IMG/VR virus record: IMGVR_UViG_3300033571_016342
Location: 1-37,397 of that record
Reading direction: 5' to 3' (one strand)
DNA length: 37,397 bases
Origin: a virus
Below are positions 2,381 to 35,932 of the stretch, piece by piece. The position numbers and the translations under genes were made by a program. How positions within the stretch are numbered: the stretch's first letter is position 1; each line of letters begins with the position of its first letter. The notes beneath the pieces are model-generated. The model was not told where the DNA came from and ran no database searches. It saw only the letters and a program-made list of their open reading frames with translations.

Positions 2381-2420
2381 TTATTAACTTTTATATTATT
2401 TTATTAACTTTTATTAACTT
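2381..2420 (+). promoter_or_regulatory. Triple TTATTAACTT repeat (candidate operator)
   Basis: The 10-base word TTATTAACTT occurs at 2381-2390, 2401-2410 and 2411-2420, the last two tandem, directly upstream of the AlpA-like gene at 2433. The 10/20-base spacing puts the copies on one face of the helix, as expected for an autoregulatory site of a small HTH protein. No clear -35/-10 was found, so promoter position is uncertain. Confidence 0.5.
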
Positions 2421-2431
2421 CAAGGACGAAG
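2418..2431 (+). promoter_or_regulatory. SD-in-loop hairpin of the AlpA-like gene
   Basis: CTTC-AAGGAC-GAAG places the Shine-Dalgarno AAGGA in a loop closed by 4 bp, one base before the ATG at 2433. Weaker than the late-gene hairpins, but with the same layout on the opposite strand. Confidence 0.4.
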
Positions 2432-2432
2432 A

Positions 2433-2630
2433 ATGATAGAAATTAATGGGAAACACTATATAACTGAAAAAGAAGCCAGTAAAAAATATGGCTATTCTGT
2501 GCCATGGTTTAGGTTGTCTAGAAAGCAAAATGATGCCCCACCTTTTTGCCGACTTCGGGAAAATGGTAAAATTCTTTACTCAATTGAAGAAACAGACAAA
2601 TGGTTTCAAAATAGATTCAATATGAGATAA
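2433..2630 (+). CDS. AlpA/excisionase-like HTH DNA-binding protein
   Basis: A 65-aa protein with the HTH_17/MerR-like plan of AlpA and phage excisionase-type proteins: YITEKEASKKYGYSVPWFRL forms the helix-turn-helix, then a beta-hairpin wing (CRLRENGKILYSIEE) and a terminal WF. Such proteins act as small transcription regulators or recombination directionality factors. It is on the plus strand, isolated inside the minus-strand late region, next to its own TTATTAACTT repeats and upstream of the large repeat field 2830-3150, so it may bind these. No integrase is present for it to assist. Start supported by AAGGA. Confidence 0.7.
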   Translation: MIEINGKHYITEKEASKKYGYSVPWFRLSRKQNDAPPFCRLRENGKILYSIEETDKWFQNRFNMR

Positions 2631-3808: not shown

Positions 3809-3972
3809 TTAACACTCCTTGTTTTAGATGCTCTCATATTATCAACTAAATTTGGGTAAGGTCTTCCTGCGCGTTTAGCACTGGCTTTTGCACTTGTTTT
3901 TTGTTTAGTTGATAATTCTTTTGGTTTGCCTAATTTTTTAGGTCTTGGCTTATCCCATATAGGTGTTTTCAT
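3805..3972 (-). CDS. 55-aa basic protein, unknown
   Basis: Starts MKTPIWDKPRPKKLGKPKEL and continues with a Lys/Ser/Ala-rich stretch resembling its upstream neighbour (KASAKRAGRPYPN against KGRASAKAQG). Both ends show ATGA overlaps with adjacent genes, strong evidence for a real coupled gene. It may be a distant paralogue or partner of the 86-aa protein. Confidence 0.6.
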   Translation of the reverse strand: MKTPIWDKPRPKKLGKPKELSTKQKTSAKASAKRAGRPYPNLVDNMRASKTRSVK

Positions 3973-4229
3973 TTGCAATCCCATTTTCTTAAGGCTAAAG
4001 CCTTTCTTGTAGGCCGTCCCTTTTCATCTTTCATAGGTCCCGGGTTGCCGCTCATTCTTGCGCAAAAACTTTTTCTGCGTGCAGCAGCTTTTGGAGATTT
4101 TTTGGCTTGTTCTGAACTTACTGGCGGTTTCAAGTTCATGCCTTGGGCTTTTGCTGAAGCTCTTCCTTTAGCATTCAACCCGCCAGTGGGACTTTTACCT
4201 TCTTTTCTAGTCCATGCAGCTGTTTTCAT
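3969..4229 (-). CDS. Conserved small basic phage protein
   Basis: 86 aa. Its plan (AWTRKEGKSPTGGLNAKGRA..., then PPV..., then RRKSFCARMSGNPGPMKDEK and GRPTRKALALRKWDC) matches a small basic protein I have seen encoded by many aquatic and podo-type phages near structural genes, of unknown function. I chose ATG 4229 rather than an upstream start because the family begins close to the AWTRKEGK motif. The nearly invariant RKSFCARMSGNPGPMKD segment suggests a specific binding role. Its TGA overlaps the next ATG. Confidence 0.7.
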   Translation of the reverse strand: MKTAAWTRKEGKSPTGGLNAKGRASAKAQGMNLKPPVSSEQAKKSPKAAARRKSFCARMSGNPGPMKDEKGRPTRKALALRKWDCK

Positions 4230-4230
4230 T

Positions 4231-4689
4231 TTATTCTCCAGGCCAAATAATTTTAGGCAGTGAAGAAACAAAAGTATCAGCTAAAGGTATATCTGCGCCA
4301 CTATCAATTTCATTATATTTTGCAAAGACTAAATTGTATATTTGATCACGCCATGAAATAAAAGTTTCAGCTTCCGCACGCCAAATTTGATTTACAGAAG
4401 AAACATAACTTGCAATACTTAAAGTGTTATCATAACCTTTTTCTTTAGCTGTACTATTTAATAAATCCTTTACTAAAGAATCAACGGTTATTTTAAAGTT
4501 ATTTGAATTAAATTCTTTTTCATATTGAGGTATTTCATTTTCAAGCTCTTCAATAGTAGGCTGAGGCACCCCTGGAACATCCCATTTAGTTATAATATAT
4601 GTATTATCGTCATTAGTAAGACATACCACGATACTACCAATGGCTAGCTCTTTTGGATATTTTATTTGTAATAAATCAACAATATTCAT
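4231..4689 (-). CDS. Phage protein of unknown function, tail-fibre-assembly-like
   Basis: 152 aa. A beta-type N-terminus with WDVPGVPQPTIEELENEIPQ, a wording common in phage tail-fibre assembly or tail-adjacent proteins, then a helical C-terminal half (KGYDNTLSIASYVSSVNQIW... AETFISWRDQIYNLVF) typical of a phage family in which an aromatic/Glu/Trp-Arg helix follows a GY.n..s..sY motif. It may be a chaperone or a minor virion protein. Start ATG 4689 overlaps the stop of the 46-aa gene upstream (ATGA). Only the similarity in wording is seen; no function shown. Confidence 0.55.
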   Translation of the reverse strand: MNIVDLLQIKYPKELAIGSIVVCLTNDDNTYIITKWDVPGVPQPTIEELENEIPQYEKEFNSNNFKITVDSLVKDLLNSTAKEKGYDNTLSIASYVSSVNQIWRAEAETFISWRDQIYNLVFAKYNEIDSGADIPLADTFVSSLPKIIWPGE

Positions 4690-7262: not shown

Positions 7263-7278
7263 ATGACATCCTTGTCAT
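7263..7278 (-). promoter_or_regulatory. SD-in-loop hairpin of portal gene (CsrA-consensus)
   Basis: Minus strand ATGACA-AGGA-TGTCAT: a perfect 6-bp stem, tetraloop AGGA containing the Shine-Dalgarno, ending directly before the portal ATG. The ten bases ACAAGGATGT match the published CsrA SELEX consensus RUACARGGAUGU at every position from its third base on. The best single candidate CsrA-type site in the window. Confidence 0.7.
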
Positions 7279-11214: not shown

Positions 11215-11261
11215 ACTTATCAAATATACTTAGATAAACTTAAATAAACTTGTTGACACTT
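11215..11261. promoter_or_regulatory. 10-base phased ACTT repeats (operator candidate)
   Basis: ACTT recurs at 11228, 11238, 11248 and 11258, exactly 10 bases apart, in the context ATANACTTA/AAACTTR; another ACTT lies at 11215. The last overlaps the -35 box of the rightward promoter. The layout suits cooperative binding of a repressor controlling the divergent early/late promoters. Confidence 0.5.
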
Positions 11262-11281
11262 ATTTGGAATTAAAGCATAAT
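11253..11281 (+). promoter_or_regulatory. Sigma70 promoter, rightward early cassette
   Basis: TTGACA (11253-11258), 17-base spacer, CATAAT (11276-11281), 34 bases before the ATG at 11316. Consensus -35 and 5/6 -10. Divergent from the late promoter. Confidence 0.75.
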
Positions 11282-11315
11282 GCATCTTGTAAACACAAAC
11301 AACTAGGAGACTAAA

Positions 11316-11597
11316 ATGAATCAAATTAAATTTAGAAAATATTACGTAACAGACGGAGTAATAAAAGCCAAAGTTTTTTATCACATAGAAAAATCTTGTT
11401 CAGAAATAACAAAAGTTTTTATATGCGAATATTATTATACATCGGGATTAAGAAAAATATTTCCTGATTTATATGAAAACAATACAGATTCACTAGTAGA
11501 TTATTACGAAACAGGTAGTGTTACACTTACTAAAGACCATGTTTTATTTGAAAGTGCTTTAGAAGCTGCATTGAAAAACAAAAAAAACCAAAATTAA
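11316..11597 (+). CDS. Early accessory protein, unknown
   Basis: 93 aa, MNQIKFRKYYVTDGVIKAKV...; mixed alpha/beta, basic N-terminus and acidic middle (DLYENNTDSLVDYYETG). Shares with the next two genes the leader CAACTAGGAGACTAAAATGA, though its protein is different. Being the first gene from a strong promoter and small, it has the profile of an early host-takeover or anti-defence protein; that is inference only. Confidence 0.6.
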   Translation: MNQIKFRKYYVTDGVIKAKVFYHIEKSCSEITKVFICEYYYTSGLRKIFPDLYENNTDSLVDYYETGSVTLTKDHVLFESALEAALKNKKNQN

Positions 11598-11663
11598 TTT
11601 TTTATACAACTAGGAGACTAAAATGACCGTAGAAATAGAAAAACCTTTATTTATATATGTAGA
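11589..11663 (+). repeat. Direct repeat, copy 1 (leader and first codons)
   Basis: About 75 bases covering leader, Shine-Dalgarno (TAGGAG) and the first 13-14 codons recur at 11957..12031 with only a handful of differences. Marks a tandem gene duplication. Confidence 0.85.
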
Positions 11664-11955
11664 ATACGAACAAGTTAATGGGCTTTTTCCTAAAGAACCT
11701 ATATTTGAGCGAAAAAAAGCATACAGCATTGAACAATTTGATGCATTCATAAAAGAAAATGAAAAATTTTTTGAAGAAAAAAATGTTCTTTTATCTGTTT
11801 ATTTAATTTCAAATTTAGGTAATCGAACATATCAAGATTTATATTTTCCAGCCTCAGGTTCATTCACTTTTCAAGATTCTTTAAGAATAAAACATAGAGA
11901 AATAGAAAGTGAATTTTTAGAAATAAACGTTTACAAAAACTACCTTGAAATTTAA
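11623..11955 (+). CDS. Early accessory protein A of a tandem pair, unknown
   Basis: 110 aa. First 14 residues MTVEIEKPLFIYVE are almost identical to the next gene (MTKEIEKPLFIYVE); the remainder is diverged but keeps length and general pattern (helix with EQFDAF..N..FF, strands SVYLISNLGNRTYQDLYF). Presumably a recently duplicated, fast-diverging accessory protein. No known family recognised. Confidence 0.65.
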   Translation: MTVEIEKPLFIYVEYEQVNGLFPKEPIFERKKAYSIEQFDAFIKENEKFFEEKNVLLSVYLISNLGNRTYQDLYFPASGSFTFQDSLRIKHREIESEFLEINVYKNYLEI

Positions 11956-11956
11956 T

Positions 11957-12031
11957 CAAAATTAATTTTTTATACAACTGGGAGACTAAAATGACCAAAG
12001 AAATTGAAAAACCTTTATTTATATATGTAGA
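11957..12031 (+). repeat. Direct repeat, copy 2
   Basis: Second copy of the leader and N-terminal coding repeat found at 11589..11663, 368 bases downstream. Confidence 0.85.
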
Positions 12032-12329
12032 GACATATCTTTTAGACAGCAATGAAGATCTTTCTCATAATATTTTTGACATAGCCAAACACATCTCTAC
12101 AGAGGAATTTGAGAAAAGTTTTAATGATAATTTAGAAATTATTAAAGAACATCATTTAACAATTTACATTGAAATAATTACAAATTTTAACAATAAAATA
12201 TGTCACACATTATATTTCCACAAATATGATAAACCTTTAGATCTTAAATATCATTTAAAAGAAGGATTTGATTATTTTAAAGACAAATTTTTATCATTTT
12301 ATAATATATCAGACTACCTTAAAAGCTAA
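11991..12329 (+). CDS. Early accessory protein B of a tandem pair, unknown
   Basis: 112 aa, paralogue of the preceding gene: shared N-terminus IEKPLFIYVE, then EEFEKSFNDNLEII (as EQFDAFIKENEKFF) and TIYIEIITNFNNKICHTLYF (as SVYLISNLGNRTYQDLYF). The interior has diverged strongly while the first 13 codons and leader stay near-identical, suggesting recent recombination at the front end or selection on translation initiation. Confidence 0.65.
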   Translation: MTKEIEKPLFIYVETYLLDSNEDLSHNIFDIAKHISTEEFEKSFNDNLEIIKEHHLTIYIEIITNFNNKICHTLYFHKYDKPLDLKYHLKEGFDYFKDKFLSFYNISDYLKS

Positions 12330-12354
12330 GTTGTATGATAAAATCTATTAATTT

Positions 12355-12363
12355 ATAACAAGG
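12355..12363 (+). promoter_or_regulatory. ACAAGGA at the SD of the AlpA-CsrA pair
   Basis: The Shine-Dalgarno for the gene at 12371 lies within AACAAGGAC, whose ACAAGGA is the core of the CsrA binding consensus (ACARGGA). No clear hairpin encloses it. Possible autoregulation by the CsrA-like product of the second gene. Confidence 0.35.
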
Positions 12364-12370
12364 ACTAACA

Positions 12371-12583
12371 ATGGATATATTTGACAAGCCTTTTTTAACC
12401 CTAGATGAAATAATTGGTAATAAAAAACTTAATATTCCTCCTATATTACCCATAGGAAAAGCCACTTGGTATAATGGCATGGCATCTGGAATATATCCTA
12501 AGTCCATTCAATTAGCAAAACGCAGAGTAGCTTGGAGAACAGAAGATATAGTATCTTTAATAGAAAAATTAAAAGGACAATAA
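12371..12583 (+). CDS. AlpA-family transcription regulator
   Basis: 70 aa. Residues 24-68 (ILPIGKATWYNGMASGIYPK, then SIQLAKRRVAWRTEDIVSLI) are a clear AlpA/HTH_17 domain: helix-turn-helix, Y-P turn, R-x-V-A-W-R wing. AlpA proteins activate excision or regulate mobile-element genes. Its TAA overlaps the ATG of the CsrA-like gene (TAATG), so the two are co-expressed. AAGGA precedes the ATG. Confidence 0.85.
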   Translation: MDIFDKPFLTLDEIIGNKKLNIPPILPIGKATWYNGMASGIYPKSIQLAKRRVAWRTEDIVSLIEKLKGQ

Positions 12584-12897
12584 TGTTATATAAAACAATC
12601 TCAAAGAGTGAGCCTTTACGTTTGACTAAAAACGGTAAAGATATTCTTGTAACAATAAATAAAATTAAAGGGAGTTCAATATCTTTTGGTATAGATTGTC
12701 CAATAGAAATTGATATTAATAGGCCTGATGCAATTATTCAAGACAAAAAATTGCGCAATAAAAATCAAAAATTAAAAATTAGAAAAAACAAAACCAATAT
12801 TAAAAATCCAATTGTAAACTCAAATGTTTTATCAACAAAAATTAACCCAAATGCAAACAAACCTATTTTAACTTTAAAGAAAAAAAATACTATTTAG
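12583..12897 (+). CDS. csrA: CsrA/RsmA-like RNA-binding regulator with basic tail
   Basis: 104 aa from ATG 12583. Residues about 13-50 follow the CsrA fold: DILVTINKIKGSSISFGIDC then PIEIDINRPDAI, matching V-T-V-L-G-V-K-G..V-R-I-G-V-N-A-P-K-E-V-S-V-H-R-E-E-I of E. coli CsrA, including the Arg aligned with R44 needed for RNA contact. The first strand MLYKTIS lacks the R6/R7 of MLILTRR. After residue 55 comes a Lys/Asn-rich tail (KNQKLKIRKNKTNIK) not found in CsrA (61 aa). CsrA dimers bind GGA in loops at ribosome sites, and nine or more genes in this window carry such hairpins. Overlaps the end of the convergent zinc-ribbon gene by 8 bases. Confidence 0.75.
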   Translation: MLYKTISKSEPLRLTKNGKDILVTINKIKGSSISFGIDCPIEIDINRPDAIIQDKKLRNKNQKLKIRKNKTNIKNPIVNSNVLSTKINPNANKPILTLKKKNTI

Positions 12898-13111
12898 ATA
12901 ATTCTTCATCAATCATATTTTCAATTTGTTCAACAGACAGATCTTTGTATTTTTTCTTAATTTTATTAACAGATTCTTTATAAATCCCTGATTTTTTATC
13001 AATTTTAATATTAGGCATAGAGCCTGTTCCCTGGCAGACTTTACAATCTTTTTTCATCATTCCAAGGCCTGTAACAATTCCAGAACCATTGCATATAACA
13101 CATCTTATCAT
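12890..13111 (-). CDS. DnaJ-type zinc-ribbon small protein
   Basis: 73 aa with two CxxCxGxG motifs, CVICNGSG (4-11) and CKVCQGTG (23-30), as in the cysteine-rich domain of DnaJ; the four Cys should bind one zinc. The rest is helical and Lys-rich (KESVNKIKKKYKDLSVEQIE). Start overlaps the lysozyme stop. Phages use such small zinc ribbons in late regulators or adaptor proteins; which applies here is unknown. Confidence 0.75.
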   Translation of the reverse strand: MIRCVICNGSGIVTGLGMMKKDCKVCQGTGSMPNIKIDKKSGIYKESVNKIKKKYKDLSVEQIENMIDEELSK

Positions 13112-22105: not shown

Positions 22106-22690
22106 TTATACTACTGTTAAATTACCTACTGAATTTCTTACAACCCATTCAGTGTTTGCTACTGTACATAAAAGCTCTATTTGATCATATCTATTAGTTG
22201 ATGATAAAGAACCACCTACACCTGCGGTAGAACTTACATTACCAAAATGAATTAATTGACCAGCATTTTGTGCTATAGACCAACCACCCGCACCATAACC
22301 TGCGATACTAATTTCAGTTCCAAAAGCTGCTGTTGCAGGTAAGGTAAAAGTAACTAAACCGGCATTGTTTGCAACGTAAGCTGCATCTGCTGCCATAGCC
22401 TGTGAAGTACCAGTAACATCAGTCCAAGATGCACCGCCCGTTGCAGCGATAGTAATTGAGCCTGCCGCATTTGTAATTGCTATGCCACTACCAGCTGTTA
22501 ATGTAGCTGCAACAGGAGCGGTTCCTGTATCTCCTATCAATAATTGTCCATCAGTTAATGCACTTGACGCTGTAATAGCACCAGAGCCATTACCAAGTAA
22601 AATCCCGTTTTGTGTTAAAGTTGAAGCACCTGTACCGCCATTTCCTACACTAAACGGGGTAGGTGCATTTATACTATTGTTCGTTGCCAT
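22106..22690 (-). CDS. Tail-fibre-module protein 4 (194 aa)
   Basis: Two parts: an N-terminal fibre repeat (SVGNGGTGASTLTQNGILLG, LLIGDTGTAPVAATLTAGSG, ITNAAGSITIAATGG) and the shared C-terminal module (WTDVTGTSQAMAADAAYVAN ... FTLPATAAFGTEISIAGYGA..., ending NSVGNLTVV). The shortest member with both parts. Its Shine-Dalgarno lies in a perfect hairpin loop (22693..22707). Confidence 0.65.
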   Translation of the reverse strand: MATNNSINAPTPFSVGNGGTGASTLTQNGILLGNGSGAITASSALTDGQLLIGDTGTAPVAATLTAGSGIAITNAAGSITIAATGGASWTDVTGTSQAMAADAAYVANNAGLVTFTLPATAAFGTEISIAGYGAGGWSIAQNAGQLIHFGNVSSTAGVGGSLSSTNRYDQIELLCTVANTEWVVRNSVGNLTVV

Positions 22691-22692
22691 CT

Positions 22693-22707
22693 TGACACTC
22701 CTTGTCA
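22693..22707 (-). promoter_or_regulatory. SD-in-loop hairpin of fibre-module gene 4
   Basis: Minus strand TGACA-AGGAG-TGTCA, perfect 5-bp stem with AGGAG in the loop, 2 bases before the ATG at 22690. Shares the TGACA/TGTCA stem with the portal hairpin. Confidence 0.6.
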
Positions 22708-22715
22708 GTTATAAA

Positions 22716-24644
22716 TTATGTAAATGAGTTAAATTTACTATCAGAAGCGTAACTTTCTACTATCCAAACAGTATTTGCACTTGTGCAGATTAAAGTACAT
22801 GCATCTTTTGAATGTTTTGCGGTCATAGTTCCGCCAGTTGATGTACTTGATGTGCTAAAAGTTACCGTTTGGCCTGTGTTAGCTTGTACAACCCAAGCAG
22901 CCCCACCACCTCCAACGATAGTTATCCTATCGCCTACCGCGCAAGTTGCAGGTAAAGTTATCGTTGTTGCTGAAATATTTTGTGTAATGTAACGCACATT
23001 TACTAAAGCATTTTGCGTAGTTCCTGTTATAGTTGATGTTGTCATTACAGGACCAATTGTATCTATCGTAATAGAATTAGCCGCATTAGTTACTGTTATA
23101 TATGTGCCTTGTGTTAAATTTGCAGCTGCAGGAGTTCCTGCTGAAGATCCAATTATTAGCTGCCCATCGCTCATTGAACTTGATAAAATTGGTGAGCCGT
23201 TAGTATCTGTAACCATAGATGCACGTACAGTTGTTGTGCCTGTTATAAATAGTGGTACTAAATAAGCAGTACCGTTTATATTAGGTCTCCAATAACCACG
23301 CCCAGTTCCACCACTATATATGCTGCCATCGCCTCTAAAACCAACCGGATTTCCTGTAGAGCCAAAGCTTATACCAGGACCATTATCAGCGCTTGTATTT
23401 CCTGTTGAAGCTCTTCCAATAGATCCTGCACCAATTGCAATAGTCCCGCTTGCAGAGGCGCTATTAACTGATACTTGATAGCCAAACAATGAATTGTTAG
23501 AGCCTGTTGTTATTGCAACTGCACCACTAACTGCGGTAACCCCTGCTGCATAACCAAAAACAGAATTATTTGATCCAGTAGAACAGCTTGTCATTCCAGT
23601 TCCGCTAATCACGTGGTTAAAATCAGCACTGTTTAAAGCAATTAACACATTTTGGCCAATACCAATATTGTTAGTTAAAACTCCACCAGCATTTCTCCCA
23701 GCAGCTTGACCGATAAAAACATTTTGTCCACCCAAAGCACCGCCAAAAGTACGTAGGGCTTCAAACCCAATCGCAACATTCCCATCAGTAGAAGCATTTC
23801 CAGTTAATGCAAAACTACCTACTGCAACGTTTTGCGCACTTGAACCCGCCGCCCTTAAAGCTTGCGTTCCAATAGCAACGTTATTAATCCCAGTAAGTAC
23901 CGCCGAACCTAAGGCTTGAAACCCCACAGCCACACAATTTGATATAGCAGTTCCAGGAAGTACTGTTAATGCACCTGAACCGACTGCTACGTTTTGAGTG
24001 GATGATGTAGCAATATTTAAGGCAGCTGAAGATCCAACAGCTGTATTATTGGCACCCGTAGTTACAGCATTTAATGCTTGATACCCGATTCCGGTGTTTC
24101 CGGTTCCAGCTACCGCAGTATTATTAACAGCTTGGAAACCTAAACAAGTATTAAAATTTCTAGTACCAAAACCTGCGCCAACTGTAACTCCGTTAAAAGC
24201 AAAATCACTATTTATTGAGCTTGTTCCGCTTACAGCTGTGCCTGTTGTAGCATAAAATGCTAACTGTTGAGCATTTCCTGAATTTACAGTCCCACCGCCA
24301 CTAGTTGCAGCAATCGTAATAGATCCTGCTCCATTTGTTATACTAATGTTAGTGCCTGCAACTAGATTAGCTGCTGTCGGTGTAGATCCTGTAGAACCTA
24401 TGATAAGTTGACCATTCGTCATAGAGGAACTGTAAGTTGGCGTGCCAGATGAGTTAGTTACTAAAACTGCTGAGTTTGTAGAAATAAGATCTTTTACTGA
24501 GCCAGAAGTATCAGCAGCTTGCAATAAATTATTAACAATAAAAGAGCCGTTAGCACTAGTTAAACTTGGTTGTGCAACATCTGTGGCATTTTTTGTTATT
24601 GCTGTGCCAGGCGTTCCGGTTCCTAATATATTTATTGTAGGCAT
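22716..24644 (-). CDS. Large tail fibre with YadA-head-like repeats (642 aa)
   Basis: Starts like the next upstream gene (MPTINILGTGTPGTAITKNA TDV). Two copies of the SSSMTNGQLIIGSTGSTP / AANL.AGTNISITN.AGSITI unit (about 73-115 and 480-525) flank a central region (about 150-420) of GNNTAVGSSA-, NVAVGSGAL-, NVAIGFEAL- and NNSVFGYAAG-type repeats. This is the left-handed beta-roll motif of YadA/Hia autotransporter heads, also found in some phage fibres. It ends with the shared C-terminal module in diverged form. Trimeric adhesin-like fibre contacting the host surface (inference). Perfect SD hairpin upstream. Confidence 0.75.
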   Translation of the reverse strand: MPTINILGTGTPGTAITKNATDVAQPSLTSANGSFIVNNLLQAADTSGSVKDLISTNSAVLVTNSSGTPTYSSSMTNGQLIIGSTGSTPTAANLVAGTNISITNGAGSITIAATSGGGTVNSGNAQQLAFYATTGTAVSGTSSINSDFAFNGVTVGAGFGTRNFNTCLGFQAVNNTAVAGTGNTGIGYQALNAVTTGANNTAVGSSAALNIATSSTQNVAVGSGALTVLPGTAISNCVAVGFQALGSAVLTGINNVAIGTQALRAAGSSAQNVAVGSFALTGNASTDGNVAIGFEALRTFGGALGGQNVFIGQAAGRNAGGVLTNNIGIGQNVLIALNSADFNHVISGTGMTSCSTGSNNSVFGYAAGVTAVSGAVAITTGSNNSLFGYQVSVNSASASGTIAIGAGSIGRASTGNTSADNGPGISFGSTGNPVGFRGDGSIYSGGTGRGYWRPNINGTAYLVPLFITGTTTVRASMVTDTNGSPILSSSMSDGQLIIGSSAGTPAAANLTQGTYITVTNAANSITIDTIGPVMTTSTITGTTQNALVNVRYITQNISATTITLPATCAVGDRITIVGGGGAAWVVQANTGQTVTFSTSSTSTGGTMTAKHSKDACTLICTSANTVWIVESYASDSKFNSFT

Positions 24645-24647
24645 TAT

Positions 24648-24663
24648 GATTCATCCTTGAATC
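24648..24663 (-). promoter_or_regulatory. SD-in-loop hairpin of the 642-aa fibre gene
   Basis: Minus strand GATTCA-AGGA-TGAATC, perfect 6-bp stem with tetraloop AGGA, 3 bases before the ATG at 24644. Core CAAGGATG as in portal and gp10. Confidence 0.65.
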
Positions 24664-24671
24664 TGTTAAAA

Positions 24672-25349
24672 TTAAACTATAGTTAAATTGCCTGTTGGAA
24701 TACCTGTCCAAGTGGTATCTGCAGCAGTACAAATCAATCTTATTCCGCCACCTTGTTCTGTAGCTGTTAGAGAACCTCCAACGCCAACAGTAGTAGTTGA
24801 GCCAACCACTAAAACACTTTGACCCGCATTTTGAGCTAAAGTCCAAAGACCTGCACCTGCTCCTACTATTTCCATAACTGTTCCAACTGCAGCAGTTGCT
24901 GGCAATGTAAATGTTATTAAAGCAGCGTTGTTAGCAATATAGCCATTATTTGCAACCATTGTTTGGCTTGTGCCAGTTACATTAGTAAAAGAAAAACCAG
25001 CAGCTCCAGTCGCGGCTATAGTTATTGAGCCCGCAGCATTTACAATACTTATGTTACTGCCAGCTGTAAGTGTAGCCGCTGTAGGCGTGGATCCTGTAGA
25101 GCCTATTATTAATTGACCATTCGTCATTGTGCTTGAATATGTAGGGGTGCCTGTTGAATTTGTAACAAGTACTGCGCTATTTGTTGATGCAAGATTTTGT
25201 ATTGTTCCGTTGGTATCTGCTGCAATTACTAAATTGTTAGTTGTAAAAGCACCGTTTACTGAAGCCACAACTGATTTAGTATTATCAGTTACGTTTTTAG
25301 TAATTGCTTGCCCTGGGGTTCCAGTGTTAATTATATTAATAGTTGCCAT
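24672..25349 (-). CDS. Tail-fibre-module protein 2 (225 aa)
   Basis: MATINIINTGTPGQAITKNV is nearly the same start as the 642-aa fibre. It then has the unit STMTNGQLIIGSTGSTPTAA / TLTAGSNISIVNAAGSITI and the C-terminal module (FTNVTGTSQTMVANNGYIAN ... FTLPATAAVGTVMEIVGAGA..., ending IPTGNLTIV). It is essentially the 642-aa fibre without the YadA-like insertion. ATG 25349 preferred over a TTG two codons earlier because of Shine-Dalgarno spacing. Confidence 0.65.
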   Translation of the reverse strand: MATINIINTGTPGQAITKNVTDNTKSVVASVNGAFTTNNLVIAADTNGTIQNLASTNSAVLVTNSTGTPTYSSTMTNGQLIIGSTGSTPTAATLTAGSNISIVNAAGSITIAATGAAGFSFTNVTGTSQTMVANNGYIANNAALITFTLPATAAVGTVMEIVGAGAGLWTLAQNAGQSVLVVGSTTTVGVGGSLTATEQGGGIRLICTAADTTWTGIPTGNLTIV

Positions 25350-25352
25350 TTT

Positions 25353-25368
25353 CAATCATCCTTGACTG
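25353..25368 (-). promoter_or_regulatory. SD-in-loop hairpin of fibre-module gene 2
   Basis: Minus strand CAGTCA-AGGA-TGATTG: six pairs including one G-T wobble, tetraloop AGGA, 3 bases before the ATG. The core CAAGGATG again. The wobble suggests the structure rather than the sequence is kept. Confidence 0.55.
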
Positions 25369-25373
25369 TTAAG

Positions 25374-25856
25374 TTAAAAAATATCTAAATTCCCTACTGG
25401 GATGCCCGTAAAAAAAGAATTATCAGTTGTACAAATTAATTGGACGCAATCTGTTGGTAAAGTACTTTGTAAATATCCCGTAGTTCCTAAGGTGCTAGAT
25501 AACCCTTGGATATTAATTTGTTGACCAATATTTTGATTTATTTTCCATCCATTTATTGCACCAATAATCGTAATTGTTTCTCCAGCTAAAATAGATGTAG
25601 GCAAAGTAAAATTTAATATACCACCAGAATAATTTGCTATATACGCCTTATTTCCAATCATAACTTGTGTTGCTGTAGTAACAGGAGTATAAACAATGAC
25701 TGGTAATTGGGCTATTATAGAATTTTTTAATTGCTGCCAGGTAATAGCATAATCATCAGCTGCTGTGTATGGGCTTCTTCCCAAATATAATAAATCCGTA
25801 TTTATTGCACTTGATGCAGGATTAGCTGTAAAAACTTGAAAAATATTTGATGACAT
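25374..25856 (-). CDS. Tail-fibre-module protein 1 (160 aa)
   Basis: MSSNIFQVFTANPASSAINT, LYLGRSPYTAADDYAITWQQ (a short attachment segment similar in plan to the 213-aa protein), then the shared C-terminal module in diverged form (NKAYIANYSGGILNFTLPTS ... LICTTDNSFFTGIPVGNLDI F). First of five tandem paralogues. ATG 25856 abuts a perfect 8-bp SD hairpin; a TTG two codons earlier falls within the stem and is unlikely. Confidence 0.65.
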   Translation of the reverse strand: MSSNIFQVFTANPASSAINTDLLYLGRSPYTAADDYAITWQQLKNSIIAQLPVIVYTPVTTATQVMIGNKAYIANYSGGILNFTLPTSILAGETITIIGAINGWKINQNIGQQINIQGLSSTLGTTGYLQSTLPTDCVQLICTTDNSFFTGIPVGNLDIF

Positions 25857-25875
25857 TATCAAAATCCTTTTGATA
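25857..25875 (-). promoter_or_regulatory. SD-in-loop hairpin of fibre-module gene 1
   Basis: Minus strand TATCAAAA-GGA-TTTTGATA, perfect 8-bp stem with the Shine-Dalgarno at the loop, directly before the ATG. The longest contiguous stem of the family; inner A-T pairs probably open to give an AAGGAT-type loop. Confidence 0.65.
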
Positions 25876-26407: not shown

Positions 26408-28633
26408 CTATAATTTAATAAATACATTGTAAAAAGTTGTAGGCTGCATAGTATTATGGGGTTTATTTCCGCCCGTTGAATTTAGATTTAAAGCACTTCC
26501 GCCATCAGTTGTAAAACCTGAGCTACCACCGTATGCAGGTCTTGCTGCACCAATGTTTTGATAAACTAATCTAGGGTTTGTGTGACTATGAGATGGCATC
26601 TCACCAATGCTTAATCTATGAAAATATTCACCAACAGTTACACCAGAAACTTGACTCAATATAGTTTGAGTTCCGGCTCCTGCATTTATATAAGCTAAAA
26701 TGGGGAATCCAGCTAAAGCATTAGTATATGTTGTTGCAAGATTAATTGTATTTCCTGCTATATTAGCTACATAAAATATAGTATTTGCTGTCAAATTACC
26801 AGGTAAGGTTCCTGATGTTTTTACTGTGACAGGCATGCCAACATAATAAGAAGAGCCTGATTGAACATTTAATATAAACTGTGTATTTAAACTATGAACT
26901 CCTGTGCCCGTTGCAGTAAATGTAATAGGATCGCCGTCTTGAGTAGTTGATAAGTTAAAAGTATTACCTGAAATGTTTTGTATATAGTAAGGTGTACTGG
27001 CTGCCAGTGGAGTTGGCAATATGCCAGTACTACTTACTGTAACAAGAGTGCCATTTATTAATCCTGTTATAGAAGGAACAGTTACAGTAGTAGATGAAGC
27101 GGTTACTGTAAAAGTTTGAATAACATTAGTGGCTGTAAAAGTTTGACTATATATATCAGGTAACAAAGCGTCAATGGGCACATTTCCTGCTAATACTTTA
27201 CCAAACATAGGTGTTAACGCTATGTATTTTTGATTTGTAAAGTCTTGATAAGCTGATGTGCCATAATTTGTTAAATTAGTATCAGGCGGAGTGGGGTTTA
27301 AAACATTATCATACATTTGACAAACAGGATTAAAATTTGCGCCTGTATCAAACCGTTTTGCATAATTCCATAAAAGATTATACAAAGGCCACGTATCATA
27401 ATTGTTTCTTGCCGTAGGTTTTTTTACACCAATAGATGTAGCAGGCGAATACCCTATTGTGCCATCATTCATTGGAACCCATCCAAATGGATAAAAAGCA
27501 TTAATGCTAGACCTTATATCCCCAGTTCTTGGGCTATTAATTACAGAGTCAACCATATCATATGTTGAAAAACTTAGTGTAGGCGCAACACTTCCCAAAT
27601 ATACAGATGGCATAGCAAATTCAACTTCTAGTAATTGCCCTGCAGGAAACCCTATAAGCAAATAAAATCCATCATCGCCACCCTCGCCTACATTAACAGA
27701 CACTATTGGAAAAATTCTGTTTAATTCAAATTGCTGCCAATCACTACCTAAAACAAAAACATCTGTTTGCAAATCACCGCCTAAATCCCCGCCGGTTCCT
27801 GTTGATTGATACATGGACATAATTAATTGAGTTGCTATTCCGTTAGTAACCCTTGCTTGGATTGTAGCAACATAAGGAGTGTTAATTAAGTTTGTGATAT
27901 GTAATTGAACAGGAATAGAAAAAAATTTAATTGTTTCTGCTCCAGTTGCTGTACAACTTAGCTTGCAGTAATATTCTGGGGTAACATCACCTACAAGTTG
28001 TGATGAAGAGCTAGAAGGATTTCCGGGAAATTGCGCAAATGTAACTTCTTCTACAGCCCCTCTTGCATCTTTGCAATAATTAATATCAGGCAACATAAAC
28101 CCGTCATGTTGACTTGGAGCTATTGTTTCATAATAAATTGTTAATGGTGAATAAAAATATGGCGTTTCTTTTGTTGGGTTTGTAACATCAATTGATTCTA
28201 TATTTCTCCAAAACCCATTATTAACAATTAAGTTTTGATATGTAGGTATTTCATTAGGACCTATAGTTTCACCAGGCACAAAAGGAAAATAAGCTCTTGT
28301 AAATTGTCTTTGACCATCAGAGTTATCAACTGTTATATAATATGGTTCTGAAATTTGACTATCAGTTTCTGAATATGGATAAAATCCGGGAATAACATCT
28401 ACCCCATTTATATCTTGAATGGTTCCGGCTGCTGAAAGCCTCATAGGGTTAGGCAAAGGCAAATAATTATAATTGCCTGGTTGTCCTGTTTGATAGTACC
28501 AGTTTTTTAATGTAGTTCTTGAATTGTCTGCATAACAAGTAACTATACCTGCAGCTAGCGGTAAACCGTTTTTATCTATCAACGCTTCTTGAAGAGTCGG
28601 AGAAAATATTAAAAGATTTGGGATAATAGCCAT
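26408..28633 (-). CDS. Tail fibre with collar-type C-terminus (741 aa)
   Basis: The N-terminal segment (LIFSPTLQEALIDKNGLPLA AGIVTCYADNSRTTLKNWY) is a widely shared fibre start. The middle has the tail-collar fold landmarks FGWVPMNDGTIGYSPATS and DTWPLYNLLW. The C-terminus has GEMPSHSHTNP and GGNKPHNTMQPTTFYNVFIK, the conserved H-x-H and N-(T/M)-x-P-T elements of phage collar/short-tail-fibre domains. Two related inserts around 495-620 carry LPTPLAASTPYYIQNISGNT and LPGNLTANTIFYVANIAGNT. Receptor-binding or fibre-attachment role. SD hairpin upstream. Confidence 0.8.
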   Translation of the reverse strand: MAIIPNLLIFSPTLQEALIDKNGLPLAAGIVTCYADNSRTTLKNWYYQTGQPGNYNYLPLPNPMRLSAAGTIQDINGVDVIPGFYPYSETDSQISEPYYITVDNSDGQRQFTRAYFPFVPGETIGPNEIPTYQNLIVNNGFWRNIESIDVTNPTKETPYFYSPLTIYYETIAPSQHDGFMLPDINYCKDARGAVEEVTFAQFPGNPSSSSSQLVGDVTPEYYCKLSCTATGAETIKFFSIPVQLHITNLINTPYVATIQARVTNGIATQLIMSMYQSTGTGGDLGGDLQTDVFVLGSDWQQFELNRIFPIVSVNVGEGGDDGFYLLIGFPAGQLLEVEFAMPSVYLGSVAPTLSFSTYDMVDSVINSPRTGDIRSSINAFYPFGWVPMNDGTIGYSPATSIGVKKPTARNNYDTWPLYNLLWNYAKRFDTGANFNPVCQMYDNVLNPTPPDTNLTNYGTSAYQDFTNQKYIALTPMFGKVLAGNVPIDALLPDIYSQTFTATNVIQTFTVTASSTTVTVPSITGLINGTLVTVSSTGILPTPLAASTPYYIQNISGNTFNLSTTQDGDPITFTATGTGVHSLNTQFILNVQSGSSYYVGMPVTVKTSGTLPGNLTANTIFYVANIAGNTINLATTYTNALAGFPILAYINAGAGTQTILSQVSGVTVGEYFHRLSIGEMPSHSHTNPRLVYQNIGAARPAYGGSSGFTTDGGSALNLNSTGGNKPHNTMQPTTFYNVFIKL

Positions 28634-28636
28634 TTA

Positions 28637-28649
28637 GACAATCCTTGTC
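28637..28649 (-). promoter_or_regulatory. SD-in-loop hairpin of the 741-aa fibre gene
   Basis: Minus strand GACAA-GGA-TTGTC, perfect 5-bp stem with the Shine-Dalgarno at the loop, 3 bases before the ATG at 28633. Confidence 0.6.
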
Positions 28650-32307: not shown

Positions 32308-32706
32308 TTAAGTTAATGTAAATGTATACCACTCTGCACTTTGAATCGTTGGCGGTGTGGTCGGATTATATTTAATTATAAACTGTTTTGGGACTCGATT
32401 TGTAGAGTCAAAAACAGTTTTGCCTGAAATATCAGGAATATTTATTTGTTTTGTGTTTGTAGGGTCGTTTTGTGGCAAAGGCTTTCCTATGTAAGGCTGG
32501 TAAATATTCCTAATAGTTGTAATCTCATTTTGTGTTAATGCTGGAAATAATATTCCTTCGTTACTAAAATTTTCTTGTAATGCTTGAAAAAGAGACCCTA
32601 ACCCTAAATCAAATAAAGGATTTATATTACCCTGAGAATCAACTATTTGTTGTTCTCTAGGATAATCCGGGAATATACTTTGGGGTTTTTTTGTTTGTTG
32701 TGTCAT
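32308..32706 (-). CDS. Small tail protein following gp10, unknown
   Basis: 132 aa: FPDYPREQQIVDSQGNINPL, FDLGLGSLFQALQENFSNEG, then KPLPQ..., PDISGKTVFDSTNRVPKQFI and a C-terminal strand. In P22 the next gene after gp10 is the tail needle gp26; this protein is shorter and lacks a long coiled coil, so an adaptor or a plug is more likely. Overlaps the gp10 stop by 4 bases, so it is translationally coupled. Confidence 0.55.
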   Translation of the reverse strand: MTQQTKKPQSIFPDYPREQQIVDSQGNINPLFDLGLGSLFQALQENFSNEGILFPALTQNEITTIRNIYQPYIGKPLPQNDPTNTKQINIPDISGKTVFDSTNRVPKQFIIKYNPTTPPTIQSAEWYTFTLT

Positions 32707-34526
32707 GTTCTCACCGATACTACGCCATTAGTAACCACTATCCGACCCTGACTCCAAAACTTAACTTGTATTACTAAATCATTTACAAGACCTAATTGCC
32801 ACCATTGTAATTTATTTTTACGTTTTCCTATGCCCGGCAAAACGTTCGGCATATCGCTACCAAAAGTAGCTCCGCCATCAGTTGATATTGATAAATCAAC
32901 CCTTGGGGTTGTATAAATATATTTATTTTGTTGAGCTATCAAATAACTATAATTTGGATTTGGTAATTGTTGTTGCATTACTAATTTTTTTGTTTTTGCT
33001 TGATTAACAAGAATACTTCCATTTTGCAAAAGAATATCAATATTGGTTCCAGTTCCATTAGTAATAAATGTTTGTTGAAATACAATTTTTTTATTATCTT
33101 GTGTAATTATTCCATTACCATCTTGGGTAATCATACTTACATATTGATTTTGGGTAATAATCAATTTACCATCTTGGGTTATTAGTCTTATTGGACCTGT
33201 AGACTGTTTTTCATAATCAGTTTCTCCAGATTCAATTGTAAATCCAACATCATTCGCTACAAAATAATCTTGTGTAGCTAATCTAATATTTTTACAAGTT
33301 CTCATTCTTGGGATAATGTGGTCTTGAACAATACCAATTGAATTATTATCTTGATAAATAGTAAATACAGTATCAAATATATACATATTTCCTGTATTTT
33401 TTGACACAAAATAATATTGATTTTTAAAAAAGGCAACCTCTGCGGCAATAAAATAATTTAAATTTTGATCTGCTGCATGATAAATCTTATGTGTGCCATC
33501 AGGTAAAAAGTCTACAAATAACGATAAGTTATCTTTATAAAAATTTATATGATAAAACAAATGCCCGTCTTGCCTAAACAAAAATCCTTGTGAGTCCTCT
33601 GGAAATTGTAATTGACCAAATAAGTAATCAATACCATCTGTCGTAATCTTTTGAGGCATGCCACCTGTCGAATACATTAATATAGGACCTGATTTTTCAT
33701 TTGACGCAAGCCACACAACAATCTCATCCATATAAGCTACTGATGCTGGAGATTTACATCCATAATCAATATTAAATTGATTAGTGCGTTGATATGGAAA
33801 CAGTTGTGCTCCTGTATTAAACCAAGCCTCACTTACAGTTTGCCCCATGACAAAAATCATATTACCTTTAGATGGAAATCTAACTACTGCTTGTATTTGA
33901 TCAGGTTTTGTTTGCAATAATCCTATAGACTGCGCATCATCTGCCCAGTTTAATCCATCATTTTCTCCTGATAAACGCCACGTATTTGTTGCAGGAGGAG
34001 AGTAAAAAGAATCTTGACGCGCTGCACAAATAAAATAAGTATCATGAAATGTAATAAATCCAGGCGTAAATTTAATTGTATTTACAACTTGAAACCTAGA
34101 AGGTAAAGTAGGATCGTACAAATACAGTTGTTCATTATCTGATATTAAAATTTGAGGCTTATTGTTTTCAGCTATATATACAACACCAGAATTACTTTGT
34201 AATTGACCAATTAAAATAACTTGTGAGGTTGTTACAGTTAAAGTTTGTTGATCAAATACAATATCTATTAAAAAAACATTTTCATCAATAACAGTAATAA
34301 TTTTATTTAATTTAGAAGACGTAAAAATACCACGCCCAGTTGCTCCATTTCTTAATCTTGCAGAACTTAATGCAATTTTATATCCTGCGTAAGGAACTAA
34401 AAAATCATCGCTTTGAAACATATTATATGTTTTTTCAATAGAAATTTTAGGATATCTTCCAAAAGTAGAGCTGCCAACAATATTTAAATCGACTGACGTA
34501 TAATTTTGTCCGCGTTTTACAGGCAT
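32703..34526 (-). CDS. Packaged-DNA stabilisation/tail hub protein, P22 gp10-like
   Basis: 607 aa (P22 gp10, 472 aa). The N-terminal SSTFGRYPKISIEKTYNMFQ SDDFLVPYAGYK, FICAARQDSFYSPPATNTWR and the propeller-like repeated strands FIFVMGQTVSEAW follow the gp10 family. It closes the portal-gp4 channel and holds the tail. Residues about 440-520 hold an insertion of repeats (LITQDGKLIITQ, MITQDGNGIITQDNKKIVFQ) explaining much of the extra length. The ATG at 34526 abuts a perfect 7-bp SD hairpin. Confidence 0.85.
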   Translation of the reverse strand: MPVKRGQNYTSVDLNIVGSSTFGRYPKISIEKTYNMFQSDDFLVPYAGYKIALSSARLRNGATGRGIFTSSKLNKIITVIDENVFLIDIVFDQQTLTVTTSQVILIGQLQSNSGVVYIAENNKPQILISDNEQLYLYDPTLPSRFQVVNTIKFTPGFITFHDTYFICAARQDSFYSPPATNTWRLSGENDGLNWADDAQSIGLLQTKPDQIQAVVRFPSKGNMIFVMGQTVSEAWFNTGAQLFPYQRTNQFNIDYGCKSPASVAYMDEIVVWLASNEKSGPILMYSTGGMPQKITTDGIDYLFGQLQFPEDSQGFLFRQDGHLFYHINFYKDNLSLFVDFLPDGTHKIYHAADQNLNYFIAAEVAFFKNQYYFVSKNTGNMYIFDTVFTIYQDNNSIGIVQDHIIPRMRTCKNIRLATQDYFVANDVGFTIESGETDYEKQSTGPIRLITQDGKLIITQNQYVSMITQDGNGIITQDNKKIVFQQTFITNGTGTNIDILLQNGSILVNQAKTKKLVMQQQLPNPNYSYLIAQQNKYIYTTPRVDLSISTDGGATFGSDMPNVLPGIGKRKNKLQWWQLGLVNDLVIQVKFWSQGRIVVTNGVVSVRT

Positions 34527-34544
34527 AAAACCATCCTTGGTTTT
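34527..34544 (-). promoter_or_regulatory. SD-in-loop hairpin of gp10 gene
   Basis: Minus strand AAAACCA-AGGA-TGGTTTT, perfect 7-bp stem with tetraloop AGGA, immediately before the ATG. Core CCAAGGATGG; stem unrelated in sequence to that of portal. Confidence 0.65.
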
Positions 34545-34564
34545 GTAATGATAATATTATAACA

Positions 34565-34753
34565 CTATTGATTTCTTTTGCCGAAGAGATAGCCAATTAT
34601 TAAGGTGATTATCGGTTGAACCATGTCTTGTAATTTTTCAAATATATCATCCTTAGGGTCGATCATTTCCGACCCTATTCCAACCAATGATATAATAAAA
34701 CAAAATATTAAAATTGTTTTAGCAACTTTAAGCAATGGATCTTTATCATTCAT
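34565..34753 (-). CDS. Two-TM small membrane protein (holin candidate)
   Basis: 62 aa with two transmembrane segments (about 10-28, VAKTILIFCFIISLVGIGS, and 45-58, VQPIITLIIGYLFG), a short acidic loop (DPKDDIFEKLQD) and a basic end GKRNQ. This fits the size and topology of class II holins. No lysin gene is adjacent (the endolysin is elsewhere), so assignment is tentative. Start overlaps the preceding stop (ATGA). Confidence 0.55.
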   Translation of the reverse strand: MNDKDPLLKVAKTILIFCFIISLVGIGSEMIDPKDDIFEKLQDMVQPIITLIIGYLFGKRNQ

Positions 34754-35478
34754 CTTGAATCTATCAATTTAGCTTGTTCTATATAATATTGTAATAAATC
34801 TTTACTATATGTACTAGCTAAACATTCTAATTCATGTGAAAAATCATTATCGTACCAATTTATTTGATAAACGATTCCATCCTCATTATTTCCATAATTC
34901 CAATGAGTGGTAATTTTATTATTAATACTTTTTAAAACCTCACTTTCAGGAATACTAATTGAAAGATGACTGGTTTTTATATCTATTTGTTCATACATGC
35001 AGTAACTTTTATTATCTAATTCTAGTGCAACAACAACTCCAGACCAATGCCCATTAAAAGAGTTAGATGGCGCATACGCTAAAGTTTTGATTGAATTTGG
35101 TAAAGTAATGAAATTCCATGATAGCTTTAAGTTTTTATAATCTTTATGCCATTTAGTGCTTTGATACGAGTCATCATTTGATGACAAATCATTGTCTACA
35201 TTTTTTTTTAAGTTTATTAAATCATAAATTGTAGGATTATCCGAAGTTGCATATCCATTTTGCGCCATTTCTAAAACGCCTTTATTATGTGTTTTTAATA
35301 AATCTTTAGGCAAATTTAATTGATTATTTTTTATTATATGTACTCCATCTCCCAAATATACTATATTTTGACTTTTTAAATAATCTTGCATTTTTTCTTT
35401 TAATGATGCCTCTTTTTCTAACAAAGTAGCGGCATGTGTAACCATACTAATTGCGCATAAAATTAATATTTTTTTCAT
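34750..35478 (-). CDS. Secreted/periplasmic protein, unknown (242 aa)
   Basis: ATG 35478 (GGTGGGA upstream, one base after the preceding stop) gives a clear signal peptide MKKILILCAISMVTHAATLL with probable cleavage after THA. The mature part is acidic/neutral with KWHKDYKNLKLSWNFITLPN, FNGHWSGVVVALELDN, and a Cys pair (SYCMYEQ, LECLAS). No family recognised. A secreted moron-type protein between head-tail genes; could modify the cell envelope, exclude superinfection or be displayed on the host. No domain evidence. Confidence 0.65.
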   Translation of the reverse strand: MKKILILCAISMVTHAATLLEKEASLKEKMQDYLKSQNIVYLGDGVHIIKNNQLNLPKDLLKTHNKGVLEMAQNGYATSDNPTIYDLINLKKNVDNDLSSNDDSYQSTKWHKDYKNLKLSWNFITLPNSIKTLAYAPSNSFNGHWSGVVVALELDNKSYCMYEQIDIKTSHLSISIPESEVLKSINNKITTHWNYGNNEDGIVYQINWYDNDFSHELECLASTYSKDLLQYYIEQAKLIDSR

Positions 35479-35479
35479 T

Positions 35480-35860
35480 TTAATCCCACCATCCATCGTA
35501 AATTGAACAATCATCAACATAAGTTATTTGAGAAGTATATGATGACCCATTAGGTAAATATAATATATGATACGCGTATACATTCCACTTGCCATTAATT
35601 ATTTTAGGAGCCTCTCCCCAGTGCACCGCAGCATTACGCCATGTGTATTTTGGGAAAGTATCTATTAAACATTTTTGTTGACCATCATAATTATGATAAG
35701 AGATTATTCTTGACCAAAAAGCGTGCCCTGCCCACCATGTAATAGACTCGTTATTAACACAATTAGCTCTACTATGATGAGTTAATTTATAAAGACCGCT
35801 GTGAGAGTTTATCGCAGTAAGTATCATCCCTAATGCAATTCCCTTTTTAATTTTTTCCAT
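35480..35860 (-). CDS. Secreted Trp/His-rich protein, unknown (126 aa)
   Basis: ATG 35860 (GGAGG 5 bases upstream) leads into a signal peptide MEKIKKGIALGMILTAINSH SG. The mature region is rich in Trp, His and Tyr (SITWWAGHAFWSRIISYHNY, YTWRNAAVHWGE, YDGWWD) with three Cys. The aromatic/His content suggests a carbohydrate- or metal-binding secreted protein. It forms a two-gene set with the following secreted protein. Not recognised. Confidence 0.6.
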   Translation of the reverse strand: MEKIKKGIALGMILTAINSHSGLYKLTHHSRANCVNNESITWWAGHAFWSRIISYHNYDGQQKCLIDTFPKYTWRNAAVHWGEAPKIINGKWNVYAYHILYLPNGSSYTSQITYVDDCSIYDGWWD

Positions 35861-35932
35861 ATTTGCCTCCATGTTTCGGGGCAAATGATAAAATATTAAA
35901 TTACTAAATACAATTAATTATATGGTCGCCAA

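Follow-up and report, generated by a model that had tools for sequence, protein, structure and literature searches.

CsrA is a bacterial protein that turns the translation of mRNAs on or off, and its RNA surface is formed by strand 1 of one subunit together with strand 5 of the other. In E. coli CsrA, the positions at which binding is lost most strongly are R44, V42, L2, I47, V40, L4, R6, and R7 (PMC6692469), the role of L4 and R44 in RNA binding has been described also in PMC7652899, and in RsmE, R6 and E46 form a structural salt bridge; the RNA consensus is RUACARGGAUGU with the core (A/U)CANGGANG(U/A) (PMC6692469). Host CsrA is a target worth acting on for a phage, since in Salmonella it is reported to affect the release of prophages (PMC12371270) and in Serratia CRISPR-Cas is under the control of the Rsm pathway (PMC8450108). 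CsrA of phages is already known, with csrA found in 30 of 2,517 phage genomes (1.2%; PMC7366521).

Several described homologs resemble the CsrA-like protein of the phage analyzed here. The long CsrA/RsmM-type protein p24 of Pseudomonas phage F116 (123 residues) shares with it the CsrA core, a C-terminal extension, and a gene orientation opposite to the late genes, but p24 differs in its tail and in its strand 1, which is canonical (MLILTRR). In F116 (L227; 16229-16600, 33363-33569), a late-region CsrA-like regulator is annotated besides the early-region 123-residue CsrA-like protein. The CsrA-like proteins of Lessieviruses (BcepMigl gp50 and JC1 gp47; PHROG 8397) are phage-borne as well and have R44 without the R6-E46 pair, as tested for BcepMigl, a partly similar loss (R6, E46) thus being known already from this Burkholderia phage; unlike the present protein they have no basic tail, keep R7, and are encoded between portal and capsid genes. 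PHROG 8397 is absent among the PHROG matches of the present protein, and BLASTP gave no alignment with BcepMigl gp50. RsmQ of a Pseudomonas plasmid and CsrT of a Legionella ICE are also CsrA homologs on mobile elements, with a potential role within the Csr/Rsm system of the host or against it, but they are plasmid- and ICE-borne, and RsmQ keeps the VHRE/D motif, binds GGA hairpins, and heterodimerizes with the host proteins RsmA and RsmE (PMC9928087). New here are a strongly altered version of CsrA and a pattern of hairpins at the ribosome-binding sites (RBS) of the phage clade, and the latter may be the more general finding.

The window, which is the whole IMG/VR record of 37,397 bp (33% G+C), belongs to a P22-like podovirus, in which PHROGs recognise the portal, the terminase subunits, the Hc3 head-closure protein, and DNA-ejection proteins. 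Named phages are distant, with portals at most about 24% identical to that of the window; metagenomic relatives are many, with portal identities of up to 87%, and two of them (47-48%) come from contigs of a single gammaproteobacterial bin, in which there is also a normal csrA. The portal search gave 78 viral records, of which 8 have a canonical csrA gene (49-82 bits), or 6 if only the 28 records of at least 30 kb are counted; further carriers are a phage contig from one bin and G016, which is related by its terminase, so that there are ten such relatives in total. This frequency is well above the general phage value of PMC7366521. Wherever gene order was examined, csrA of the relatives is opposite to the late genes. 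In the window, the CsrA-like gene is the last in a cassette of five plus-strand genes (11316-12897) that runs opposite to the structural genes (Table 1), and its start overlaps the end of the AlpA-type gene in the sequence TAATG. Viral contigs contained no close relative of the AlpA-type protein, for which reason the AlpA-CsrA pair was set aside as a conserved unit, and inspection by eye of the relatives gave no AlpA gene directly upstream of csrA. A nearly identical 21-nt leader, ACAACTAGGAGACTAAAATGA, is common to three cassette genes (11299-11319, 11606-11626, and 11974-11994).

Table 1. Features of the window that are discussed in the text, with positions, strand, and basis or remark
Feature	Position	Strand	Basis or remark
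Putative sigma-70-type promoter TTGACA-17-CATAAT, before the cassette	11253..11281	+	11/12 consensus match only; best of 27 sites
Cassette gene 1, unknown	11316..11597	+	Homologs adjoin terminase genes in related phages
Cassette gene 2, unknown, paralog of gene 3	11623..11955	+	Sequence comparison
Cassette gene 3, unknown, paralog of gene 2	11991..12329	+	Sequence comparison
AlpA-type helix-turn-helix gene	12371..12583	+	Pfam PF05930, 23.4 bits, above cut-off; PHROG excisionase/regulator
Shine-Dalgarno AAAGGA of the CsrA-like gene	12572..12577	+	Within the AlpA-like gene
CsrA-like gene, 104 aa	12583..12897	+	Profile, shuffle, and structure searches
CsrA core, residues 1-51	12583..12735	+	AlphaFold model, alignment
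Strand-1 equivalent LYKTIS, residues 2-7	12586..12603	+	Alignment: L4 to K, R6 to I, R7 to S
Basic tail, residues 52-104, net +14	12736..12894	+	Charge count, AlphaFold, codon bias
RBS hairpin ATGACAAGGATGTCAT of the portal gene, AGGA loop, contains ACAAGGATGT	7263..7278	-	Leader hairpin count
RBS hairpin GATTCAAGGATGAATC of gene 22716-24644	24648..24663	-	
RBS hairpin CAGTCAAGGATGATTG of gene 24672-25349	25353..25368	-	
RBS hairpin AAAACCAAGGATGGTTTT of the Hc3 gene 32703-34526	34527..34544	-	
RBS hairpin GACAAGGATTGTC of gene 26408-28633	28637..28649	-	
RBS hairpin TGACAAGGAGTGTCA of gene 22106-22690	22693..22707	-	
RBS hairpin TATCAAAAGGATTTTGATA of gene 25374-25856	25857..25875	-	
RBS hairpin CTTCAAGGACGAAG of the small HTH gene 2433-2630	2418..2431	+	

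An earlier note, made from the letters of this DNA, had placed a CsrA-like open reading frame at 12583-12897 with a core that aligns with CsrA, and both points hold: the frame starts with the ATG at 12583, preceded by the Shine-Dalgarno sequence, and the profile search against the CsrA family that the note had proposed does find CsrA, with scores below the curated cut-offs. Pfam PF02599 gave 21.9 bits (E=1.8e-4; gathering score 27), the NCBIfam CsrA equivalog 22.4 bits (E=9.3e-5; cut-off 73), and PHROGs a weak CsrA match (E=0.04). With an HMM made of ten CsrAs from related phages and one of bacterial origin, the window protein being left out, the frame scored 19.8 bits (E=5e-4 among 15,856 ORFs), in a shuffle test the real sequence reached 18.7 bits against 14.9 bits of the best shuffle (0 of 20,000 came up to the real value), and a profile comparison gave E=2.4e-5. 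Scanning with an alignment of phage CsrAs was dropped because the alignment was too variable. Profiles, shuffles, and the profile comparison agree in a homology beyond chance, and as judged by sequence the frame encodes a divergent homolog of the CsrA/RsmA superfamily, the match being weak yet above chance. A fold other than that of CsrA, the outcome named in the note as speaking against its reading, did not come up. In the AlphaFold model, for which related CsrAs served as alignment, pLDDT is about 84-93 for residues 1-40 and 75 over 41-50, strands are predicted for residues 12-16, 19-29, and 32-38, and a helix begins at residue 48; the tail is of low confidence and predicted to be mostly unstructured. 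When the predicted monomer was the query, the top 14 PDB matches of Foldseek were all CsrA/RsmA, as were the top 7 of VIA-align, and the high-probability structure matches of this model are CsrA/RsmA only. The monomer thus has the predicted fold of CsrA (strands 1-5 and a helix, with strands 2-4 central), in a test of limited independence, since phage CsrAs made up the alignment from which the model was built; prediction from the single sequence yielded these three strands again, at a pLDDT of 36. A CsrA-like core fold is supported by these predictions.

Compared with 31 other CsrA sequences, mostly viral, the protein combines conservation and loss in an unusual manner. The Arg that had been proposed as the equivalent of R44 is indeed there, as Arg47 (codon 12721-12723), and R44 is invariant in 31 of 31 relatives; A36 and P37 are invariant among these, too, R6 is present in 30, and E46 in 28 of 30. 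Like the canonical CsrA/RsmA proteins (PF02599) of G016, G052, G057, G058, G062-G065, G088, and the G099 phage contig, the window protein has the native ML start, L2, P37, V42 (as I), the strand pattern, and the dimer-core hydrophobics; unlike them it has K, I, and S at L4, R6, and R7, C at A36, and D at E46 (P-D-A in place of E45-E46-I47), carries the basic tail, and scores about 22 bits instead of 49-82. Thereby the strand-1 face of L4, R6, and R7 and the R6-E46 salt bridge are missing, and the replacement at L4, R6, R7, and A36 exceeds that in any of the 31 relatives. In a scoring by groups of residues, the strand-1 RNA face came to -1.90, the family minimum being 1.14, whereas core strands, dimer-core, and strand-5 hydrophobics were normal for the family. 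That strand 1 lacks R6 and R7 had been seen before, and I and S were found in their place, but strand 1 also contains two lysines, K4 and K8, so that positive charge has been moved and not simply lost. With the strand-5 R44 kept and L4, R6, and R7 replaced, one half of the composite pocket appears intact and the other half replaced. The tail, noted earlier as about 50 Lys/Asn-rich residues, comprises 53 residues (13 Lys, 11 Asn, 2 Arg, 1 Asp, no Glu) with a net charge of +14, whereas the next most basic stretch of 53 residues among the phage proteins compared has a net charge of +9. Codon bias is phage-like and in frame in core and tail, which together with the basic character of the tail gives no sign of gene decay. 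Pairwise identity of the core to related-phage CsrAs is about 19-33%. Searches for orthologs of the protein, which covered phages and plasmids as well as viral contigs and bacterial genomes, found none.

The leaders of the structural genes often put the GGA of the Shine-Dalgarno sequence into the loop of a short hairpin, as in the portal leader ATGACA-AGGA-TGTCAT-ATG. Among leaders with GG[AG], those in which it lies in a loop closed by at least 4 Watson-Crick pairs were counted; 15 of 35 in the window have such a hairpin, against a mean of 3.6 and a maximum of 9 in 500 shuffles, and of the 624 non-leader GGAs 9.6% are in such hairpins. In the clade, the count is 179 of 703 (shuffled mean 58.8, maximum 78 in 50 shuffles), and in unrelated viral loci, mostly of higher G+C, it is 44 of 432 against 38.5 when shuffled. 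The clade-wide hairpins are a post-transcriptional signal that can be tested, and six control phages (P22, T7, F116, VvAW1, X14, and a Vibrio phage) show no excess of them, nor does a bacterial bin. Four portal leaders keep ACAAGGATGT, which fits the CsrA consensus, with covarying outer pairs (A-T, T-A, G-C; G-C, A-T, C-G). The exact core WCANGGANGW occurs at 4 of 43 RBS GGAs of the window versus 1 of 613 elsewhere (p=8e-5), and at 46 of 1,769 versus 199 of 25,742 in the clade; across the whole window, 5 sites face 2.1 expected, which is not a significant enrichment, and only the location at the RBS is significant. Control phages were negative for this location. These data support that RNA structure at the RBS GGAs of the clade is selected. 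CsrA may be the reader of the candidate hairpins, but it need not be, since the hairpins are present also in relatives without a detected csrA and since the preference for AAGGATG (G after AAGGAT) is seen in unpaired leaders as well. For the latter reason, the excess of C..G over G..C around AAGGAT (21 to 1) was set aside as proof of CsrA recognition. A lower number of hairpins in CsrA-bearing relatives is not claimed (Mann-Whitney p=0.044, pooled Fisher p=0.17). With an altered CsrA and start-site hairpins resembling CsrA sites, the window phage may be wired into CsrA control. A more far-reaching scheme, which is unlikely on present data, would be that the clade puts its structural-gene RBSs into CsrA-type GGA-loop hairpins and thereby ties virion production to the host Csr system, and that this control is lifted or redirected by a CsrA encoded in some members, in the present case a half-disabled one.

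It is tentatively favoured here, with a likelihood just short of even, that the protein is an altered CsrA-type RNA binder of changed specificity that tunes translation in a Csr-type circuit, phage mRNAs included. As R44 was kept and a basic tail was gained, continued nucleic-acid binding is favoured, and both altered specificity and tail-assisted affinity may play a part. A divergent CsrA/RsmA protein, carried in the accessory cassette of a P22-like podovirus and probably made together with the AlpA-type regulator, would form a strand-swapped CsrA dimer, in which the strand-5 arginine and the basic tail would hold the RNA and recognise it with altered specificity; its likeliest job would be to adjust translation in a Csr-type circuit, including that of phage mRNAs with GGA-loop hairpins at their RBS. 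Points against this reading are the match below the Pfam and NCBIfam cut-offs and the lack of any ortholog in the searches. Since the protein has lost L4, R6, and R7, which E. coli CsrA requires to bind RNA, its RNA binding may also be absent altogether. A rather unlikely but live rival is a dominant-negative protein that would mix with host CsrA and relieve repression, possibly of the hairpin-bearing structural mRNAs of the phage. As each pocket combines strands 1 and 5 of different subunits, only one complete pocket, made of host strand 1 and phage Arg47, would be left in a mixed dimer; with the other pocket lost, two sites would not be bridged and CsrA repression would be relieved. Full glgC repression requires both CsrA pockets according to Mercante 2009, as cited in PMC7652899, the heterodimers of RsmQ with host Rsm proteins are a precedent (PMC9928087), and the normal dimer-core positions, the lost strand-1 face, and the hairpin RBSs fit such a function, but a pure poison would need neither the kept R44 nor the gained +14 tail, and the core has diverged from the CsrAs of related phages.

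Strand-1 loss and basic tail would also agree with a CsrA scaffold that has lost its RNA-specific contacts and been repurposed, by means of the tail, for general DNA/RNA or protein binding, for instance with the AlpA-type protein or in the virion. BcepMigl gp50, encoded between portal and capsid genes, is likewise without R6 and E46, and a virion role has been proposed for the CsrA-like protein of the Burkholderia phage JC1, of which one peptide was found in virions (PMC9144972); the window gene, however, is on the opposite strand and outside the structural operon, and Arg44 is conserved. Such a repurposing is quite unlikely. That the gene is the decaying relic of a canonical phage csrA, of which there are ten in relatives, would account for the loss of the family-invariant R6, A36, and E46 next to kept P37 and R44, but is improbable for an intact frame with a good RBS, coupling by start overlap, phage-like codon bias throughout, conserved core hydrophobics, and a tail that was gained rather than lost. 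A small basic beta protein without any homology to CsrA, resembling it by chance, is extremely improbable: the scores below the cut-offs and the low pLDDT of the single-sequence model would be expected of it, but independent profiles agree, none of the shuffles reached the real score, the alignment begins at the native ML start codon, P37 and R44 are kept, and CsrA recurs in the same phage clade. A natural CsrA in which half of each RNA pocket is replaced, together with phage mRNAs that have CsrA-like hairpins, offers a direct test of whether phages read or break Csr control.

Some further small genes of the window were noticed. The minus strand at 12890-13111 encodes a small CxxCxGxG zinc-ribbon-like protein that is similar to the central domain of DnaJ; dozens of related phages have it as a neighbor of the small terminase subunit. 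Two genes at 34750-35884 (minus strand), the first with a signal-peptide-like start, are inserted among structural genes; their homologs in L127 and L175 have other positions, which suggests movable accessory genes. The small HTH protein of 2433-2630 (plus strand) is encoded between the regions of scaffold and portal, in the orientation opposite to the late genes, and is conserved in 42 related loci. At 3969-4271 (minus strand), a DUF6321 protein (Pfam E=8e-25) is encoded that is 100% identical over 85 residues to that of a near relative, L104.
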